Below are positions 1,733 through 26,043 of a DNA stretch of 43,137 bases, piece by piece. The position numbers were made by a program, and so were the translations under genes. Location: IMG/VR virus record IMGVR_UViG_3300020204_000131, positions 1 through 43,137 of that record; one strand, 5' to 3'. The DNA comes from a virus. The notes beneath the pieces were generated by a model. That model saw only the letters and a list, made by a program, of their open reading frames with translations. It was not told the DNA's origin and made no database searches. Each line of letters starts with the position of its first letter. Position 1 is the stretch's first letter.

Positions 1733-3177
1733 CTGGAGCTGTAGTCAGCGAATCCCCGTTCGTCCGCAGCCTCGACGTCATCGCCATGATGCCCGACTGG
1801 GGCGTAATGGCCGCCGTCACCCGAGGCACCAACTACATCCGCGACCTGTGTGAGACATATCTCCCTCAAGAACCCCGCGAAGACGACGACGCCTACCAAA
1901 TCCGCGTCGACCGCAGCGTCCTCAGCCCCTACACCAGCCGCCTAATCGAAACCGCTGCCGGAGCCATCCTCCGCAAACCCATCCACATCGAAGGCGACCC
2001 CTACTGGTTGGAATTAAGCGAAAACATTGACGGCATCGGCTCCAACCTCAACGAGTATGCCCGCCGCGCTTTGGTAAGCAGCCTTACCTACGGCCACAGC
2101 GCAATTTTGGTGGATTACCCGGCTGCAATGGGCGCCCGAAACCTCGCCGAGGAACGCGCCCAAGGCCGCCGCCCCTATTTCATCCACGTCGACGCCCCCC
2201 AAATCTGGGGCTGGCGCCAGGAATCCACCATGCCTGGCTCCCCCCTCACCCAAGTCCGCATCCACGAGTACACCACCCGCCCCCTCAACGACTTCGGCGA
2301 AGAGCAAATCGAACAAATGCGGGTGATCTACCCCGGCAAATACGACCTCTACACCTTGGGCCAAGACGTCGTCGAGTTCACCCAATCCGGCGGCTACAGC
2401 CTCGACGCCATTCCCCTAGTCCCCATCTACAGCAACCGCCGAGGAATGCTGCGCTCCCTGCCACCTCTCCTCGACATCGCCAACCTCAACATCACCCACT
2501 ACCAACGCCAAGCCGACCTCATCCACGCCCTCCACATCGCCGCAATGCCCACCCTCGTCCTAGAGGGCTGGGACGACACCAATGGTTCCGCAACGATGGG
2601 CGTCAACTACGCCATCGCTATGCAACCCGGCAACAAGGCGTACTACGTGCAAGCCGACGCCACAAGTTTTGAAGCCCAGATGGCCGAACTCCAATCTCTG
2701 GAGAGCCAAATGTCGACACTTGGCGTCACCAAACTCTTCGGCCAAAAGTTTGTCGCTGAATCCGCCGAGGCCAAGCGCATCGACCAGGCCCAATCCAACA
2801 GCGTCCTCTCAATCATCAGCCAAGAGCTGGAAAGCGCCCTTAATCAGGCTTACGCCTTCGCCGCCCAATACGTGGGCATCGAACCCCCCGAAATCACCAT
2901 CGACCGCGACTTCGACTACTACCGCCTCATCGGCCAAGACGTCTCTGTCCTTACCCAACTCAACGAAATGGGCAAGATCAGCGACTCCATGCTGCTGGAG
3001 ATCCTGCGCCGAGGCGAAATCCTCCCCGACAACATCAACATCGAGGATGAGATGGAATCCGCCGACGAAGACGCCACCGAACTCGTCGAACCTGCCGAAA
3101 CCACCGAGGAAGCCGAATCCCCTGAGGAAATGACACCCGACCGGGTTGACCGCCTGATCGAACTCCTCTCCCGCTGA
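1705..3177 (+). CDS. portal protein, DUF4055 type
   Basis: This 490-residue protein forms the dodecameric ring at the capsid vertex through which terminase pumps DNA and to which the connectors attach. The N-terminal region ([44 protein letters not shown]) matches the DUF4055 family of phage portal-like proteins as I know it, and the length fits. The acidic C-terminus ([18 protein letters not shown]) resembles other portals. It starts with GTG at 1705 in the context AAGCC-GTG, with no clear Shine-Dalgarno site. Its stop overlaps the next ATG (TGATGG). Confidence 0.85.
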
Positions 3178-4187
3178 TGGCCACTCCAACCGAGCAGCTA
3201 ACGCTCGCCCAAGTCACCGCACTGGTGCGCCTAACCCAGCGCGTCGACTCCCTCAACACCATTCACTCAGGCGACGATCCCCCACGTCCCACGCTCGGCA
3301 CCGACGGCGACTGGTACATCGCCCTCGACCCCCTCACGATCTACGGCCCCAAAACCAACAACGACTGGGGCACCGGCGTTGAACTTGCCACCCGCACTCA
3401 ACTAAGTGGACTAACCGTCGGTGGCGGCCTCCCCGGTAGCGGCAGCGGCGGAGGTGGCGAAGCCGCCACGATCGCCGTTGGCACCGTAACCACCGGCGAC
3501 CCCGGCACCAGCGCCTCCATCACCAACGTCGGCACAAGCAGTGCCGCCATCTTCGACTTCGTAATCCCCCGAGGCAACACCGGCACCACAGGCGCGACCG
3601 GCCCAACCGGCGCGACTGGCCCCCAAGGCGCCACCGGACCTGCTGGCGCCACGGGTCCTCAAGGCCCCCAAGGTGAAACCGGTCCCCAAGGCATCCAAGG
3701 TATTCAAGGCGAAGCTGGTCCACAAGGTGACCAAGGCCCACAAGGCGAAACCGGTCCAACTGGAGCAACCGGCCTCACGGGTCCCCAAGGCGACCCCGGT
3801 CCCCAAGGCACCGCCGGCACGGCAGCCACCATCACCATCGGCGCTGTCACTACCGGCTCTGCTGGCACCGGCGTCTCCGTCACCAACAGTGGCACTAGCA
3901 CCGCCGCCACCCTCAACTTCACAATCCCCCGTGGCGACACTGGTTCAGACGCAACCGTCACCGCCGGCACCGGCATTACAGTCACAACCGGCCAAGTCTC
4001 TTTAGCCAGCAGCTTTTACACCACCAACGCCTACATCCAAGCCCCCACCGGCACAACCGCCCAACGCCCCGACACCCCCAGCGCCGGCATGATCCGCTTC
4101 AATACAACCACCTCAAAATTCGAGGGTTACACAGGAACTACTTGGGTAATCATGTCCCCGACATCCATTGACGACGTTGGCGCATAG
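3177..4187 (+). CDS. collagen-like head or tail fibre protein
   Basis: This is a 336-residue protein with about 27 Gly-x-y triplets at residues ~133-213, which should form a trimeric collagen-like rod. Two copies of a ~40-residue module (starting [10 protein letters not shown] and [10 protein letters not shown], each ending in IPRG-N/D-TG) flank the rod. The C-terminus ([20 protein letters not shown]) is a module shared with the tail fibre at 20462. Its position between portal and scaffold suggests a head fibre or decoration protein. Whether it sits on the head or the tail cannot be told from sequence. Confidence 0.8.
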
Positions 4188-4237: not shown

Positions 4238-4945
4238 GTGCCCGAAGAACAGCAGGCCCCAGCAACTCCTGTGGAGACTGGTGCGCCTCAGCCTGTGGCT
4301 GAAACGTCTGATCTGGCCGCTCAACTTGAAGCCCTCCGCGCAAAAAACCAAGAACTGATCGCCGAGCGCCGCAAGGACCGCGAAAACCGCGAAAGCCTGC
4401 AACAACAGCTCGACGAAATCCGCATCGCCCAAGAACAGGCCAAAACCGCCAAACTCGCCGAATCCGGCGAATACCGTACCCTCTGGGAAGAAGCCCAAAC
4501 CACGGTCGCCGACCTCAAACAGCAACTAGCTGCCAAAGAGGCCGAAGTAGACCAAATTCGCCAAGGTTTCACCCAAGAGCAAGTTAAATCCTCCGCAATC
4601 GCCCAACTTTCCCAAGCTGGTGCGTTGGCACCCGATCAGCTGTATCGTCTAGTGCAGGAGAACTTACGTGCCAAAGAAGGACAGCCTGTGGCTGTTGTCG
4701 GCGGCGTCGAAGTTCCGGTTGGCGAATATATCGCCAACCTAAAAAACCCAGGCAGTGGTTACGAGCATCATTTTGCCGCCACGAACCGCGCCGGAATGGG
4801 TGTCACGGGTAGTGCCCGCGCCACCGCCCTTCCCGGTCAATCCAACCCTTGGTCACCCGAGGGCTGGAACGTCACTCAACAGATGTTGATGTTGTCGGAA
4901 GACCCAGATCGCGCCCGTTTGTTGAAAGCGGAAGCCGGGAAGTAA
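4238..4945 (+). CDS. scaffold / head assembly protein
   Basis: This 235-residue protein has a disordered Pro/Ala-rich start and a long charged coiled coil at residues ~28-115, rich in Glu, Gln, Lys and Arg heptads. A shorter globular end (PWSPEGWNVTQQ) follows. This architecture, directly upstream of the major capsid gene, is characteristic of phage scaffolding proteins that direct prohead assembly and are then removed. It starts with GTG at 4238 after ACAACC, the same unusual start context as the portal. No protease gene was recognised nearby, so scaffold release may not need cleavage. Confidence 0.8.
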   Translation: MPEEQQAPATPVETGAPQPVAETSDLAAQLEALRAKNQELIAERRKDRENRESLQQQLDEIRIAQEQAKTAKLAESGEYRTLWEEAQTTVADLKQQLAAKEAEVDQIRQGFTQEQVKSSAIAQLSQAGALAPDQLYRLVQENLRAKEGQPVAVVGGVEVPVGEYIANLKNPGSGYEHHFAATNRAGMGVTGSARATALPGQSNPWSPEGWNVTQQMLMLSEDPDRARLLKAEAGK

Positions 4946-4991
4946 GCCCCTGTGGGGCAACCGCTAACCACGACTCCACTGGAGCTACCCA

Positions 4992-10524: not shown

Positions 10525-13500
10525 GTGGCCGCCGACTACTCAGCAACTATTAAGCTGATCGTTGAAGGTCAGCAAAAACTTACTGAACTGCAAAACCAAG
10601 TAACAGGTTTTAGTAAGCAGTTAAAAGAGTTAGCACGTTTAGATGTATCAGGGGTATTTGAAGATCCCTTGACTGGAGGTGCTGTAGCAAAATTACGCGC
10701 CGCACGTAAAGACCAACTAAACACGCTAAAACAAACTGGACAGCAACAGGCTTCTGTTAATCGTGGACTTGAAAATCAACTTTTAAATCAAATACGCTTA
10801 AACAGCGCAGTCGATTTATACAAACGACGTTTAAATGAAGTAGGTAGAACTGCTGCACCGGAGCAGAAACAGTTTCAAGGTCGTCTTCAGGAGCTAGAAG
10901 AGGCTTTTCAATTTTTTAGAGGGCAGAAAAGCGTATCTGGTGTTCAAGCTGTAGCAACAGAATTAGGTCGTATTGTAGAGTATTCTAGAGAAGTTACTCG
11001 GCTAGAACTGGGCAGAACTAAAAGTAGCCAACAAATTAAAGATTACTATGCCCAAATAAGTAAGCTGCAAGCAGCAGGTCTGGATACACGTAAAGTTGAA
11101 GCTACGTTAGAAAAGTTTGCGGTCAATGCAGGAACAAATAAATACGCGCTTGCCGAAAAATACCGAGTTACTTTAGATGCAAATCTTAAAACTTTAAAGG
11201 ATGAACTACGTACACAAGAAAAAATAAACAAAGAACTTGCTGTTGCAGCAAAAAACCGACGCGCCCGCACAAAAGAAGCTGTAAGCAGCGGAATCATCGG
11301 TGGCGCTTTCCCCTTGCTGTTCGGACAAGGCATTGGCGCCTCAGTAGGCGGCGGTGTAGGCGGTGCAGTGGGTGGTCTTATGGGAGGACAGCTAGGCTTC
11401 GGTCTGTCCCTTGTCGGCACAGCTTTAGGCTCTCAATTCGATCTGGCTGTTCAAGGAGCTATTGAACTTGGTAAGGCTTTACAAGAACCAATAAAAAACT
11501 TTGAACAGCTAAAAGATAAAGCACTTATTTCATCTAAGGCACTTGAAAAAGAAATTGAAGTACTCATACAAGCCGGGTTTACGGCTACTGCATCTGCAGC
11601 AATTCAGCAAGATATAAATGAACGTCTGGGGCCTACAGCAGTACGTAATCTGCAGGAACTTGCTGCTGCTCAGAACGAATTTAATCGTGCTACATCGGCA
11701 GCCACAGCGCAGTTACAGGTACTAATTACAAACTTTATCGGTCTTGCTCCGATTCTTAAAGGACTTGCTTCTGGAGCACAAATAAACGCTCTTCAGACCC
11801 GCGCACAGAATACAATCACAGAACTTCGCGCACAAGGTAAAGGTCAAGCAGCCGGAAAACTTGAAGAAGTATTTGGGCGCACACGACTTACAGCTATTAC
11901 CCCAGAAGAGTACGCCCAACAACTTAATGACGCCCTTGCGGAAGCAGAAAAGAGTTTAAAGCCTGTAAAAATTAAACTCAGTCCGGCACAAGTACGTGAG
12001 GAGACAATCAGTATTCTGCAAAAGCAATTAGAAGTTTTAGATATAACTAAAAAATTTAGTGAAGCGGCCAATGAACAACGTGAATTTGACCGTCAGCGTT
12101 ACGATCTTGTGCAAGGGTATGAGGAGAGTATTGCGGCTATACGCCGCCGTGTAGAAGACGAAATAACCAACAAGCGTCTGGCACTGATTCAAAAAGAAAA
12201 CGAGTTACTCAACATTCAGGCATCAATACGCCAAGAAAGCCTGGCGATAAGCAATATGCAAGCGCGGGCAACAGCTGGCGCAGGATTACCGACGGCAGCA
12301 CGAGATGTAGCCCGACAAGCCGCAGAAGCGGTAGGCAGTTTTCAAGAAAAAGAACTTTCTCTTGCCGAGCAAGCTGCAAAGTTAAAAAGAGACGCAGCTT
12401 TAGAAGCCCTTCGTACAGACATAGAAGCTGCCAAGTTCCAGGCCGATACGGCCCGCGAAGTCAGCAAATTAAATATCGAAACTGCCAAAAAAGTAGCGCA
12501 GTTTAACGAGTCCGTCCGCAGACAAAACCAACAGCAAGACACTAGGCGTTTTGAGATTGAAAAACAACTTGCTTATTTGCGTCTTCAAAATGTACTGGCT
12601 GAGGTATCAGTACTTCAGAATATTGCCCCCACCGATGAACAATTTGAAGCTGCAGGTGCCCTACTATCAGCTACGCAGTCCGCCATGAGTTATGTTGAAG
12701 CCCAAAAAGCTCCTACTCCTATTTCGACCACAGGCGGACCAGCGATTCAAGGTGTATCACTTGCCGGAATAAATAGCCTAAATCAACAGCTTAAGATTAC
12801 ACAAGAACGCATAAATGCAGCACAACTTGCACTTAACGATCTGCTGGCACTACAAAATGCAGAAGATTTTAAAGCTAAGATGTTAAGTATAGCTGAAAAT
12901 ATTGATGCTCCGCTAACGCAATTTGCAGAAAGGCTTGTAGAAGAGGAAGCGAATAGAACTCGGTATATTGAGCTAGTACGTCAGGGTATAAAAGGTGTTG
13001 TAGCGGAACAAATTATACAGGTAGAAAATATGCGTGACCAGGCGCTGTTGCAGTACGATGCGGTCATCGCCACTTTGGAAGAGCAAAAAGCAAGGAAAGG
13101 CGTTACTGACGCGGTTAGAGCGCAAATACAAGCAGAAATTGATTTACAAGAAGCACGCAAGGGTGAGATTGCCGGTGAAGCAACTACTGCTATCACCCAA
13201 GTAAAAAATCAAGATCGCGGTAAAGCACTTCAAGAGTACATAACAAACGCGCAAGAAGGGCTTAATGATTTAGAAGCGCGTGCTGTACGTGTTGCGGACG
13301 GCATCGGCAACGCCATCGGCAATTCGATGGCACAAGGCATTACCGGTCTTATTGAAGGCACGCAATCAGCACAAGAGGTTTTTGCTAATTTTCTTAGAAA
13401 TATAGCGGATATTCTTATGCAAGAATCCACACGAATGATTGCCCAATACATTGTTTTAGGTATTGCAAGGGCATTCGGTTTAGGAACTCCTCCAAATCTT

Positions 13501-13830
13501 TCTCCTCGTTTATCGACAGGCATTGACGTGCCTATAGGTCAAATGCCAGCCGGAATGCAGTTCCGTGCTAACGGAGGTTCAGTTTCCGCCGGCTCTCCAT
13601 ACATCGTTGGCGAACGCGGCCCCGAGCTTTTTGTCCCAGGTCGCTCTGGCACCATTGTCCCCAACGACAAGTTGAGCGGTGATAACCTAAGCGTTGTCGT
13701 TAATGTGGATGCAAAAGGCACCAGTGTCCAAGGTAATGACCAACAAGGCAACCAGCTGGGACGTGTTATCTCGGATGCGGTCCAGCAAGAACTAATCAGA
13801 CAGAAGCGTCCTGGAGGCTTGCTTGCATAA
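10525..13830 (+). CDS. tape measure protein
   Basis: This 1101-residue protein sets tail length and is ejected at infection. It has long helical, Gln/Glu/Lys-rich stretches (coiled coil) at ~1-240 and ~490-700, a Gly-rich hydrophobic membrane-active segment at ~252-310, and a C-terminal GERGPELFVPGRSGTIVPN motif at ~1029, common in tape measure proteins. It starts with GTG at 10525. Codon use is clearly more A/T-rich than in head genes except in the Gly-rich and C-terminal patches, which suggests mosaic origin. The stop overlaps the next ATG. Confidence 0.92.
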   Translation: MAADYSATIKLIVEGQQKLTELQNQVTGFSKQLKELARLDVSGVFEDPLTGGAVAKLRAARKDQLNTLKQTGQQQASVNRGLENQLLNQIRLNSAVDLYKRRLNEVGRTAAPEQKQFQGRLQELEEAFQFFRGQKSVSGVQAVATELGRIVEYSREVTRLELGRTKSSQQIKDYYAQISKLQAAGLDTRKVEATLEKFAVNAGTNKYALAEKYRVTLDANLKTLKDELRTQEKINKELAVAAKNRRARTKEAVSSGIIGGAFPLLFGQGIGASVGGGVGGAVGGLMGGQLGFGLSLVGTALGSQFDLAVQGAIELGKALQEPIKNFEQLKDKALISSKALEKEIEVLIQAGFTATASAAIQQDINERLGPTAVRNLQELAAAQNEFNRATSAATAQLQVLITNFIGLAPILKGLASGAQINALQTRAQNTITELRAQGKGQAAGKLEEVFGRTRLTAITPEEYAQQLNDALAEAEKSLKPVKIKLSPAQVREETISILQKQLEVLDITKKFSEAANEQREFDRQRYDLVQGYEESIAAIRRRVEDEITNKRLALIQKENELLNIQASIRQESLAISNMQARATAGAGLPTAARDVARQAAEAVGSFQEKELSLAEQAAKLKRDAALEALRTDIEAAKFQADTAREVSKLNIETAKKVAQFNESVRRQNQQQDTRRFEIEKQLAYLRLQNVLAEVSVLQNIAPTDEQFEAAGALLSATQSAMSYVEAQKAPTPISTTGGPAIQGVSLAGINSLNQQLKITQERINAAQLALNDLLALQNAEDFKAKMLSIAENIDAPLTQFAERLVEEEANRTRYIELVRQGIKGVVAEQIIQVENMRDQALLQYDAVIATLEEQKARKGVTDAVRAQIQAEIDLQEARKGEIAGEATTAITQVKNQDRGKALQEYITNAQEGLNDLEARAVRVADGIGNAIGNSMAQGITGLIEGTQSAQEVFANFLRNIADILMQESTRMIAQYIVLGIARAFGLGTPPNLSPRLSTGIDVPIGQMPAGMQFRANGGSVSAGSPYIVGERGPELFVPGRSGTIVPNDKLSGDNLSVVVNVDAKGTSVQGNDQQGNQLGRVISDAVQQELIRQKRPGGLLA

Positions 13831-23684: not shown

Positions 23685-23945
23685 ATGGAGAACCACGACG
23701 AGGCGGTTTATCACGCCGAACCACCTCACAATCCCTTCAATCAAGTCGTCCCGGCGCTGCTAACTGCCGCAGTAGTTGGCCTCGCCGGACTTTTTATGCA
23801 AGTCGCCAAGCTGGATCAGTCAGTCAACACCGTCGCCGCCGACATCCAGGAACTCAAAAACGACAGCAAAGAACGCCTCAGCGACCTCGAATCCCGCGTC
23901 CGCCTAATCGAAATGCGCGTCGGCGCCTACAGCCAAAACAAATGA
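23685..23945 (+). CDS. holin-like or spanin-like membrane protein with coiled coil
   Basis: This 86-residue protein has one predicted transmembrane helix (ALLTAAVVGLAGLFMQVA, residues ~24-41), followed by a charged coiled coil (IQELKNDSKERLSDLESRVR). This one-pass topology with a cytoplasmic or periplasmic coiled coil is common for phage holins and lysis accessory proteins. It lies upstream of the endolysin at 24919. The stop overlaps the next ATG (ATGA). Confidence 0.7.
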   Translation: MENHDEAVYHAEPPHNPFNQVVPALLTAAVVGLAGLFMQVAKLDQSVNTVAADIQELKNDSKERLSDLESRVRLIEMRVGAYSQNK

Positions 23946-24286
23946 GCACCATCATCCAATCCACCCAGTACGAAGGCGGCTTTGCACTGGAGCAACTGGA
24001 AAACGAACGCGGCGACCTGTACTACCGCGCCTGCATCAACAGCATCTGCCGCTACGCCGAAGACGAGTACATCGCCCGCATGTACCTCGAAGGCATGGGC
24101 TGGAACCCTACGCAACCTCCACTTCCACCGGATCAATCCACGAATCAATCTCAGCCTCTAGCCGCTGATCCCAAAAATCCTGCTCCCGAAACCACTCCCG
24201 CCACTCCCGACTCGCCTTCCGCACATTGCACGACAGACACGCCGGGATTAAGTTCCTCGGATGCGTGTGCCCGCCTTTACTTTTAG
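23942..24286 (+). CDS. hypothetical protein, 3' end apparently overrun by an HNH gene
   Basis: This is a 114-residue ORF. Residues 1-56 (STQYEGGFALEQLENERGDL, NSICRYAEDEYIARMYLEG) look like a real small protein. From ~residue 57 the frame is antisense to the HNH gene on the minus strand, and its Pro/Ser/Thr-rich sequence looks like a shadow. The likely history is that insertion of the HNH gene replaced the original 3' end and added a tail. The ATG overlaps the previous stop. The true function is unknown. Confidence 0.55.
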   Translation: MSTIIQSTQYEGGFALEQLENERGDLYYRACINSICRYAEDEYIARMYLEGMGWNPTQPPLPPDQSTNQSQPLAADPKNPAPETTPATPDSPSAHCTTDTPGLSSSDACARLYF

Positions 24287-24434
24287 CCAACACATGATCC
24301 AACGTGGCTGACCGCCCCAAATCCGAATTGCAGTAGGCACATCTATTACGCCACCGCCAAATAATTTCTTGCCTAAACCTTAACTTCGCCTCCTTTTTAT
24401 TTAAGTATTCGCCATCCTCGATGCGATGGTCCAT
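24108..24434 (-). CDS. HNH endonuclease
   Basis: This is a 108-residue HNH nuclease on the minus strand. It has CAYCNSD, then LDHVLAKSKGGHTHPRNLIP and ACLSCNVRKASREW. The two Cys-x-x-Cys pairs bind structural zinc, and the D-H...N...C-N core is the HNH catalytic motif. It is probably a free-standing homing endonuclease or a packaging-associated HNH protein; the isolated opposite-strand position favours homing. Its 3' end overlaps the ORF at 23942. Confidence 0.9.
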   Translation of the reverse strand: MDHRIEDGEYLNKKEAKLRFRQEIIWRWRNRCAYCNSDLGRSATLDHVLAKSKGGHTHPRNLIPACLSCNVRKASREWREWFREQDFWDQRLEAEIDSWIDPVEVEVA

Positions 24435-24531: not shown

Positions 24532-24669
24532 ATGGATCCCACCACCGCTGCAGTCGTCGCCATTGTCATCGCGGCTAGCTCCGAAATCATCACCCTGCTC
24601 CCCATCAAGGAGAATTCCTGGGTGCAGTTGATTGTTAAAGCGCTAAAGATCATCTTCCCAAAGCGCTGA
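24532..24669 (+). CDS. small holin-like membrane protein (45 aa)
   Basis: This 45-residue protein has a hydrophobic N-terminal helix (AAVVAIVIAASSEIITLL, residues ~6-23) and an amphipathic C-terminus (WVQLIVKALKIIFPKR). Similar tiny membrane proteins lie just before endolysin genes in marine phages, and a holin role is plausible but not proven. The last codons CCA AAG form the slippery heptamer CCCAAAG at 24657-24663. The -1 frame beyond is open for ~95 codons, so a longer fusion may also be made. Confidence 0.75.
   Translation: MDPTTAAVVAIVIAASSEIITLLPIKENSWVQLIVKALKIIFPKR
24657..24663 (+). other. candidate -1 ribosomal frameshift site CCCAAAG
   Basis: The heptamer fits X XXY YYZ exactly in the frame of the holin-like gene (C CCA AAG), two codons before its TGA. 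Slipping joins it to the frame that ends at 24947. The downstream frame lacks ATG or GTG near its beginning, which makes the heptamer functionally attractive. Confidence 0.6.
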
Positions 24670-24947
24670 ACGCCGACACCGTTTGGCTGGCACGATTCGG
24701 CAACAAGGACTGGCGCCACAAAGCCCACCGCCTGGCGCAAGACCACAAGTTCCAAGCAACCTTAAAACCTCGCTTGGATCGTGCCATCGACGATTGGCAC
24801 GCGGATCAGCCATTAACACCAAAACCCGTTGTGGTTCACGAACCACCCGATGACGAGCTACAAACCGGCGACAGCCGCCTCCTCGGCGGTGCCATGAGCA
24901 TCCACTCCCCTTGGTCCGATGGCCCAAAACAAGATCCGCCTCGCTGA
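24666..24947 (+). CDS. start-less ORF behind the holin-like gene, likely frameshift product
   Basis: The frame is open from the stop at 24636-24638 to TGA at 24945-24947. It encodes LNADTVWLARFGNKDWRHKA, then HRLAQDHKFQATLKPRLDRA and a Pro/Asp-rich tail, with codon use like real genes here. The only near-start is CTG at 24666, overlapping the TGA of the holin-like gene. Expression could be by -1 frameshift at 24657-24663, giving a ~137-residue membrane-anchored protein, or by rare CTG initiation. The last 29 bases overlap the endolysin start. No family is recognised. Confidence 0.6.
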   Translation: MNADTVWLARFGNKDWRHKAHRLAQDHKFQATLKPRLDRAIDDWHADQPLTPKPVVVHEPPDDELQTGDSRLLGGAMSIHSPWSDGPKQDPPR

Positions 24948-26043
24948 TCTCTTCCGCTACTACAAAGCGTTGCCCCACCAGATGGCGGCAATCACCGAGC
25001 TGGAGCAAGCCATCGACAAGGCCAACCCGCACATCCTCGGACGCGACCAAGGCTGGTTCAAAACCTGGAGTGTGGCCGGCAAACAAACCACCTTCCCAAA
25101 CACCTGGGAAGGTGTAGTCGAAGCCGCCCGAGTCGCTGGCGCCAAATTCCCAGAACTGGTCGCCGCCCAATGGGCCTGCGAATCCGGTTACGGCAACTTC
25201 GTCTCGGGCCGCAACAACTTCTTCGGCCTCAAGGGCGATGGCACCGCCACCACAACCAAAGAATTCATCAACGGCCAGTGGGTCACCATCACCGCCAGCT
25301 TCATTGATTTCCCCGACCTCCTCTCCTGCGTCATCTACCTCGTAGATCGCTGGTATCGGGACTACAAAAACTACAAAGGCTGCAACAACGCCACCACCCG
25401 CGAAGACGCCGCCAAGTGGCTGGTGCGCGAAGGCTATGCCACCGACCCCAAATACGCCGAAAAACTAATCACCCTGATGAACGAACACGCTGGTACTAGC
25501 CCACCAGTCCCAGCCAAGGAAAAGATTTTGCGCGTGCCGTATGAGTACCAACTCGGCAGCGACGACGGCCCGCAAGGTTACCGCCAGTGTTTTAGCTCCA
25601 GCTGCGCAATGGTGGCCCGGTATTACGGCAAGATCTCGGGCGACTACGAGTACAACCGCATCCGCGCCCGCTTCGGCGACAGTACCGACCCCAAAGCCCA
25701 AAAAGCCGCCCTCCGTTCACTGGGACTGAAGGCCGAGTTCGAGATGGAAGGCACCGCCGAAATGCTGGTCAACGAAATCTCCAACGGCCACCCGGTTCCC
25801 GTCGGCTGGCTCCACCACGGTCCGTCCTACGCCCCACGCGGCGGCGGCCACTGGACCGTCGTTGTCGGCTTCACCCCCACCCACTTCATCCATAACGATC
25901 CCTACGGCGAGGCAAACCTTGCCGCCGGTGGCTACATCAGCCACAAAGGCGGCGCCGGAATCGCCTATTCCCGCAAAAACTGGCTGCCGCGCTGGCTCGT
26001 CGACGGCAACGACACGGGCTGGTTCATGAGTATCCGCCCCTAA
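24919..26043 (+). CDS. two-domain endolysin: glucosaminidase + C39-like peptidase
   Basis: This is a 374-residue lysis enzyme. Residues ~60-190 form a FlgJ-like N-acetylglucosaminidase domain with the likely catalytic Glu88 in AAQWACESGYGNF and the following NNFFGLKGDG. Residues ~205-374 form a papain-like C39-type peptidase domain with Cys224 (GYRQCFSSSCAM), His311 (GGGHWTVVVGF) and Asp327 (IHNDPYG). It would cut both glycan strands and peptides of the host wall. There is no signal peptide, so export needs a holin. It overlaps the upstream ORF by 29 bases. Confidence 0.88.
   Translation: MAQNKIRLADLFRYYKALPHQMAAITELEQAIDKANPHILGRDQGWFKTWSVAGKQTTFPNTWEGVVEAARVAGAKFPELVAAQWACESGYGNFVSGRNNFFGLKGDGTATTTKEFINGQWVTITASFIDFPDLLSCVIYLVDRWYRDYKNYKGCNNATTREDAAKWLVREGYATDPKYAEKLITLMNEHAGTSPPVPAKEKILRVPYEYQLGSDDGPQGYRQCFSSSCAMVARYYGKISGDYEYNRIRARFGDSTDPKAQKAALRSLGLKAEFEMEGTAEMLVNEISNGHPVPVGWLHHGPSYAPRGGGHWTVVVGFTPTHFIHNDPYGEANLAAGGYISHKGGAGIAYSRKNWLPRWLVDGNDTGWFMSIRP

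Follow-up and report, generated by a model that had tools for sequence, protein, structure and literature searches.

Comparative evidence for a programmed -1 ribosomal frameshift in a small membrane-protein gene of cyanophages

A programmed -1 ribosomal frameshift at the heptamer C_CCA_AAG very probably joins a small membrane-protein ORF to an extension in the -1 frame in the virus record IMGVR_UViG_3300020204_000131, a cyanosiphovirus-like genome whose whole stretch of 43,137 nucleotides is the window analyzed here. On comparative grounds, we assign this reading a probability of about 0.93. The frameshift is supported because the heptamer and the -1 register are conserved, the -1 frame bears the mark of selection and usable starts are absent. 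This comparative support seems to be about as much as sequence alone can give.

Gene layout at the junction

Tail genes in the window are of the siphophage kind, as judged from the translations, and no tRNA genes are present. The capsid ORF is 47% identical to that of a marine single-cell virus, 41% to cyanophage S-2L and 30% to KBS-S-2A. Between a portal-like ORF and the ORFs that precede the capsid gene, a protein with a collagen-like Gly-X-Y stretch is encoded (3177–4187). The region of the putative frameshift is organized as follows:

24532..24669, + strand: 0-frame ORF, small membrane protein of 45 aa, phrog_22542 family
24657..24663, + strand: shift heptamer C_CCA_AAG
24667..24669, + strand: 0-frame stop TGA, one codon (CGC) past the heptamer
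24663..24947, + strand: -1 frame extension, 94 codons plus stop, ending in the motif LLGGAMSIHSPW
24532..24947, + strand: predicted transframe protein of 138 residues, 44 from frame 0 and 94 from frame -1
24919..26043, + strand: endolysin of 374 aa, glucosaminidase (PF01832) plus C39-like peptidase (PF13529)

The product of the ORF at 24532–24669 is MDPTTAAVVAIVIAASSEIITLLPIKENSWVQLIVKALKIIFPKR, and its closing codons, TTC CCA AAG CGC TGA, agree with the original prediction that CCCAAAG at 24657–24663 is read in the 0 frame as C_CCA_AAG. The prediction had placed the heptamer two codons before the stop, which is correct when counted from AAG; the end of the heptamer itself lies one codon before TGA. 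A spacing of 0–1 codons between heptamer and stop is kept in nearly all homologues. The -1 frame is open from 24639 to 24944, being delimited by a preceding TAA (24636–24638) and a closing TGA (24945–24947), and the approximately 95 open codons that had been proposed amount to 94 plus the stop. The proposed absence of ATG and GTG near the beginning of this frame was confirmed and extends to TTG; only CTG is found, at 24666, where it overlaps the stop, and later. The length of the predicted fusion comes to 138 residues instead of the approximately 137 anticipated. The endolysin start at 24919 sits inside the end of the -1 ORF, with an offset that is identical in 41 junctions.

The likelihood of such a layout was evaluated on ATG ORFs of at least 40 aa from both strands. 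Only 2 of the 182 ORFs combine an in-frame X_XXY_YYZ close to their stop with a -1 frame that continues open for 60 codons or more past the heptamer, and the second of them (25541–25729) is out of frame within the endolysin gene. The comparative data described below remove a chance origin of the junction layout.

In the proposed mechanism, the Pro and Lys tRNAs decoding CCA-AAG would re-pair one base upstream on CCC-AAA, and a fraction of the ribosomes would bypass the nearby stop and append the 94-residue C-terminal tail. A single mRNA would then yield the 45-residue membrane peptide in abundance and smaller amounts of the 138-residue membrane-anchored form, in a fixed ratio. Slipping in the cyanobacterial host and its efficiency, hence which of the two forms is abundant, are what we infer. 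Slipping on AAG depends in part on the tRNA-Lys genes of the host, and would be favoured where these are of the UUU type only. No stem-loop, pseudoknot or internal Shine-Dalgarno sequence that might stimulate the shift was conserved among the junctions: mean z-scores of downstream folding range from -0.4 to -1.1 versus -0.7 to -0.8 in control windows, and upstream matches resembling a Shine-Dalgarno sequence span at most 4 bases and lack conservation. A stimulatory element is not obligatory in all cases of frameshifting.

Conservation of the register and the heptamer

A scan of IMG/VR with the -1 ORF as query returned 57 loci, and when alignments of the small protein or of the extension served as queries, each gave 80 loci, in overlapping sets. 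A tblastn search against GenBank phages revealed four cultured phages, Cyanophage KBS-S-2A and Synechococcus phages S-CBS1, S-CBS3 and S-EIVl. Profile searches in all forward frames found both parts at 178 loci, and the extension is in the -1 register in 178 of 178. As for the alignment of homologous loci that had been suggested as a check, an in-frame heptamer is present in 111 of 113 distinct junctions, and in 115 of 117 once four loci missed by a distance filter are added; these junctions, from environmental viruses and the four cultured phages, are mutually related, and the counts exaggerate their independence. The layout is the same in all four cultured phages, with the in-frame heptamers AAAAAAG (KBS-S-2A and S-CBS1), GGGAAAAAAG (S-CBS3) and GGGAAAG (S-EIVl), and the pieces of the pair are entered in their records as separate or partly unannotated hypothetical ORFs. 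The register is preserved by in-frame deletions in two environmental loci (L028 and L030). A search for prophage copies in GTDB genomes gave a single match, a 3.5-kb phage-like contig with the frameshift pair (L224; JAURFH010000308.1) in a MAG labelled Verrucomicrobiota, which is probably a misbinned phage.

Across the 115 junctions, the heptamer is CCCAAAG, AAAAAAG, GGGAAAG or a compound form. The share of A_AAA_AAG among the relatives is approximately 30%, AAAAAAG being found in 34 junctions of the Lys-Lys type. In E. coli, a high propensity to shift has been reported for CCCAAAG, AAAAAAG and GGGAAAG (PMC5009743). The C-terminal residues encoded in the 0 frame vary by clade (FPKR, ARKKS, KAKKG, PRGK), with a shift-prone heptamer retained, and parsimony on the tree of the extension protein gives 11 switches between heptamer types, a rough count from few alignment columns. 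Shift-proneness, rather than the local peptide, is what is conserved. The 74 distinct FPKR junctions have a synonymous entropy of zero at the codons TTC, CCA and AAG, whereas values at the remaining degenerate codons are mostly between 0.6 and 2.0, so that the low synonymous rate predicted around 24657 is found at exactly the three codons spanned by the heptamer.

The coding of FPK differs with the presence of the extension. Where the extension exists, the 80 junctions have CCA-AAG in 77 cases, CCA-AAA in two and CCG-AAG in one. Where it is lacking and the endolysin is directly next, the Pro codon is CCC (12), CCA (10), CCT (4) or CCG (2), always with AAG. Non-CCA codons thus occur in 18 of 28 junctions without the extension, versus 77 of 80 with CCA-AAG when it is present (Fisher p 9e-11, kinship ignored). 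Three of the 10 extension-less CCA cases (L123, L124 and L125) keep CCCAAAG with the endolysin directly next, in what looks like a recent loss of the extension. CCCAAAG is also carried, without a homologous extension, by seven junctions of the FPKQ clade, so that the presence of the heptamer is not diagnostic by itself.

Loss of the heptamer with both frames intact, which the original prediction had named as contrary evidence, was found in one clade only. This clade is represented by two separate contigs (L049 and L050, around 4940–4975), in which the junction reads GTA AAG AAG GGC TAG (GTAAAGAAGG) and shows neither heptamer nor replacement start. Together with L074, it accounts for 2 of the 117 junctions. 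In L074 (3100–3170), the junction CCG AAG AAG TGA has its heptamer destroyed and GTG as the codon over the stop. It is the only relative that combines the heptamer-breaking CCG with a GTG start (GTGA) for the extension, and has apparently switched from frameshifting to initiation.

Selection on the -1 frame and rival mechanisms

The -1 ORF has a median dN/dS of 0.27 (0.18 in 25 equal-length sequences) versus 1.06 and 2.06 for the other two frames of the same DNA, which contain 4–7 stops. These values point to purifying selection on the -1 ORF, the second outcome expected from the alignment. Homologues with an ATG for the downstream ORF were also sought: none of the homologues examined has one at a usable position for the extension, and the single GTG is that of L074, where the heptamer is also lost. 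The -1 stop directly abuts AAAAAAG in L171 and is one codon upstream of the heptamer in L038 and S-EIVl; because of this proximity to the heptamer, no upstream start is possible in the three. Eight junctions, including that of S-CBS3, are without even CTG, ATT, ATC or ATA near the slip site.

The -1 ORF might instead be a separate protein, translated by termination and reinitiation at the CTG over the stop (CTGA), in which case translational coupling would operate and no fusion would be made. The codon in that position is CTG in 77 of the 115 junctions, TTG in 18 and GTG in two, as reinitiation would have it, and the heptamer-less L074 has GTGA there. However, the remaining 18 junctions have CTA (9), GTA (5) or TTA (4), which are non-initiating codons, the position encodes Leu in nearly all cases, as for an internal residue, and reinitiation leaves the heptamer and its zero synonymous variation unexplained. 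We regard this mechanism as quite improbable. Even less probable is transcriptional slippage as the source of the fusion in the A-run versions (AAAAAAG, GGGAAAAAAG), which would be compatible with the 34 Lys-Lys junctions and for which polymerase slippage is a known precedent in such genes (PMC5009743). A6 is a possible site for such slippage, but CCCAAAG, the form of the window and most relatives, is not, and neither CCCAAAG nor GGGAAAG contains a long homopolymer, whereas tandem tRNA slipping is a single mechanism that covers all forms of the heptamer. Six A residues are, moreover, short for transcriptional slippage. We give the least credence to an incidental heptamer followed by an unexpressed remnant. 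The seven FPKQ-clade junctions, in which CCCAAAG stands without the extension, would fit such a remnant; strong purifying selection on the -1 frame, the register-keeping deletions in L028 and L030 and the conservation of the heptamer only where the extension exists argue against it.

Predicted products of the gene pair

The short form, whose main family is phrog_22542, is predicted by AlphaFold2 (pLDDT 78) to consist of a hydrophobic helix (residues 3–22) and an amphipathic helix (residues 29–41), and reaches a hydropathy of 2.3 at residues 7–23. Its original description as holin-like is partly supported, by the hydrophobic helix and by weak profile matches to phrog_1356 ('holin'), in 5 of 30 members with a best E of 0.007. 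The extension is predicted as a single long helix (4–47) followed by a disordered tail with the motif LLGGAMSIHSPW (pLDDT 66). No Pfam family was matched by the short form or the extension, and a search for solved-structure relatives of the extension gave none that are credible. In six loci (L044, L045, L056, L058, L059 and L061), the motif is replaced by a shorter LDxLHIRAxW type while the heptamer is kept; the alternative sequence appears to be a swapped tail module of the extension.

The C-terminal half of the extension is homologous to phrog_3316 of Kyanoviridae, at a distant level (hhalign probability 95%, E 2.6e-8). The phrog_3316 proteins are encoded in a single frame and have their own N-terminal hydrophobic segment. 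These relatives support the idea that the functional long form is a membrane-anchored version. The short form has positive charges past its hydrophobic helix, from which a cytoplasmic location of the tail would be predicted; in the Kyanoviridae homologues, Lys residues precede the anchor, and the opposite orientation would be predicted. In S-PM2 (L225:2099–2890), the gene directly upstream of the phrog_3316 membrane protein is annotated as a lipoprotein precursor, an arrangement reminiscent of two-component spanins.

Genomic neighborhood and possible function

The fusion had been predicted to lie next to the endolysin. This is the case in the window, where the endolysin start overlaps the -1 ORF, and commonly elsewhere, although it is not universal: in L023 the pair is found between portal-like and capsid genes, and in L026, L067 and L074 other genes are directly downstream. 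In both L023 and L211, the pair is near portal-like and capsid genes, with no endolysin within the stretch examined. A link of the extension to one endolysin chemistry was considered and rejected, as it co-occurs with glucosaminidase/C39, GH24-like and other endolysins. Among relatives, the endolysin stays similar in its N-terminal region (24919–25110 in the window; IRLxDLFRYYKxLPHQ...) while its catalytic part varies and may be glucosaminidase/C39, GH24-like combined with M15-like, or of another type, which suggests modular swapping behind a constant N-terminal domain. Upstream of the pair, an 86-aa protein (23685–23945) combines a single hydrophobic segment at the N-terminus with a tail resembling a coiled coil, and weakly matches Rz-like spanins (phrog_89, E 0.04); an ORF of similar appearance precedes the pair in L023. 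An HNH endonuclease gene on the minus strand (24108–24434) overlaps the end of ORF 23942–24286 and represents an insertion between small membrane proteins.

A lysis role is a plausible leading guess. The likeliest function, which we propose tentatively, is that of a membrane protein that times lysis or disrupts the envelope, and whose short form is modified by the tailed one. It is also possible that the frameshift is real and its product acts in the virion or in another process, an alternative that concerns only the function. The position of the pair in L023, the loci L026, L067 and L074 without an endolysin directly downstream, the weak holin match and the lack of an assigned function for phrog_3316 would all suit a role outside lysis. 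Against it, most relatives and three cultured siphophages have an endolysin that overlaps the pair or comes directly after it, whatever its catalytic domain, and the Kyanoviridae homologues are frequently near lysozymes or endolysins. A more specific and rather doubtful proposal is a lysis clock by recoding, in which the frameshift would set the ratio of the short holin-like peptide to the tailed form. The latter might inhibit or modify the short peptide, or link the membrane to the endolysin or envelope. If true, such a clock would span a widespread group of cyanophages.

Comparison with known systems

The mechanism would be of a known kind; for the gene pair and its setting, we found no published description in the open-access literature, where the cases of frameshifting retrieved for holin genes, lysis genes or cyanophages were limited to tail genes and MS2. 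Here, the putative frameshift is in a small membrane protein, usually beside an endolysin, of abundant viruses of picocyanobacteria. The natural controls are unusually clean, and comprise swaps of heptamer type, heptamer drift without the extension and a single-frame relative. The analysis exposes a conserved protein of approximately 138 predicted residues, which is split or overlooked by annotation pipelines in cultured phages, and lysis control in cyanophages becomes testable with existing isolates.

Programmed frameshifting in tailed phages is best known from tail-assembly chaperones. The lambda gpG/gpGT system resembles the cyanophage pair in that two proteins, a short one and a longer one with a tail, result from a -1 slip close to where a small ORF ends, and the chaperone heptamers (G_GGA_AAG, A_AAA_AAG) are of the same class. 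By contrast, the cyanophage pair begins with a membrane protein, shows no sequence relation to the chaperones and is placed after the tail-fibre genes and usually before the endolysin. Instead of the chaperone position (major tail protein/tape measure), the pair occupies a site at 24532, approximately 10.7 kb downstream of the tape-measure-like ORF (10525–13830). The E. coli dnaX site (A_AAA_AAG) shares the tandem slip with AAG in the A site; it differs in having an internal Shine-Dalgarno sequence and a stem-loop, neither of which was found conserved at the cyanophage junctions, and its shift shortens the product whereas the cyanophage shift would lengthen it.

Frameshifting was once linked to phage lysis-protein synthesis for the MS2 lysis gene; there, ribosomes that have shifted frame terminate and then begin again at the start of the lysis gene, so that no fusion results (PMC10885494, PMC5009743). 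The lambda holin-antiholin pair S105/S107 is similar in that one gene of the lysis region gives two forms of a small membrane protein. The lambda forms arise from two start codons and differ by two N-terminal residues, whereas those of the putative cyanophage holin would arise by frameshifting and differ by a 94-residue C-terminal tail. The phrog_3316 proteins of T4-like cyanophages (S-PM2 p161, DSL-LC03 WJZ48034) share the homologous C-terminal half with its LLGG-M-PW motif, an N-terminal hydrophobic anchor and a frequent location near lysins; they differ from the cyanophage pair in that they are made in a single frame, with an anchor unrelated to the short form.
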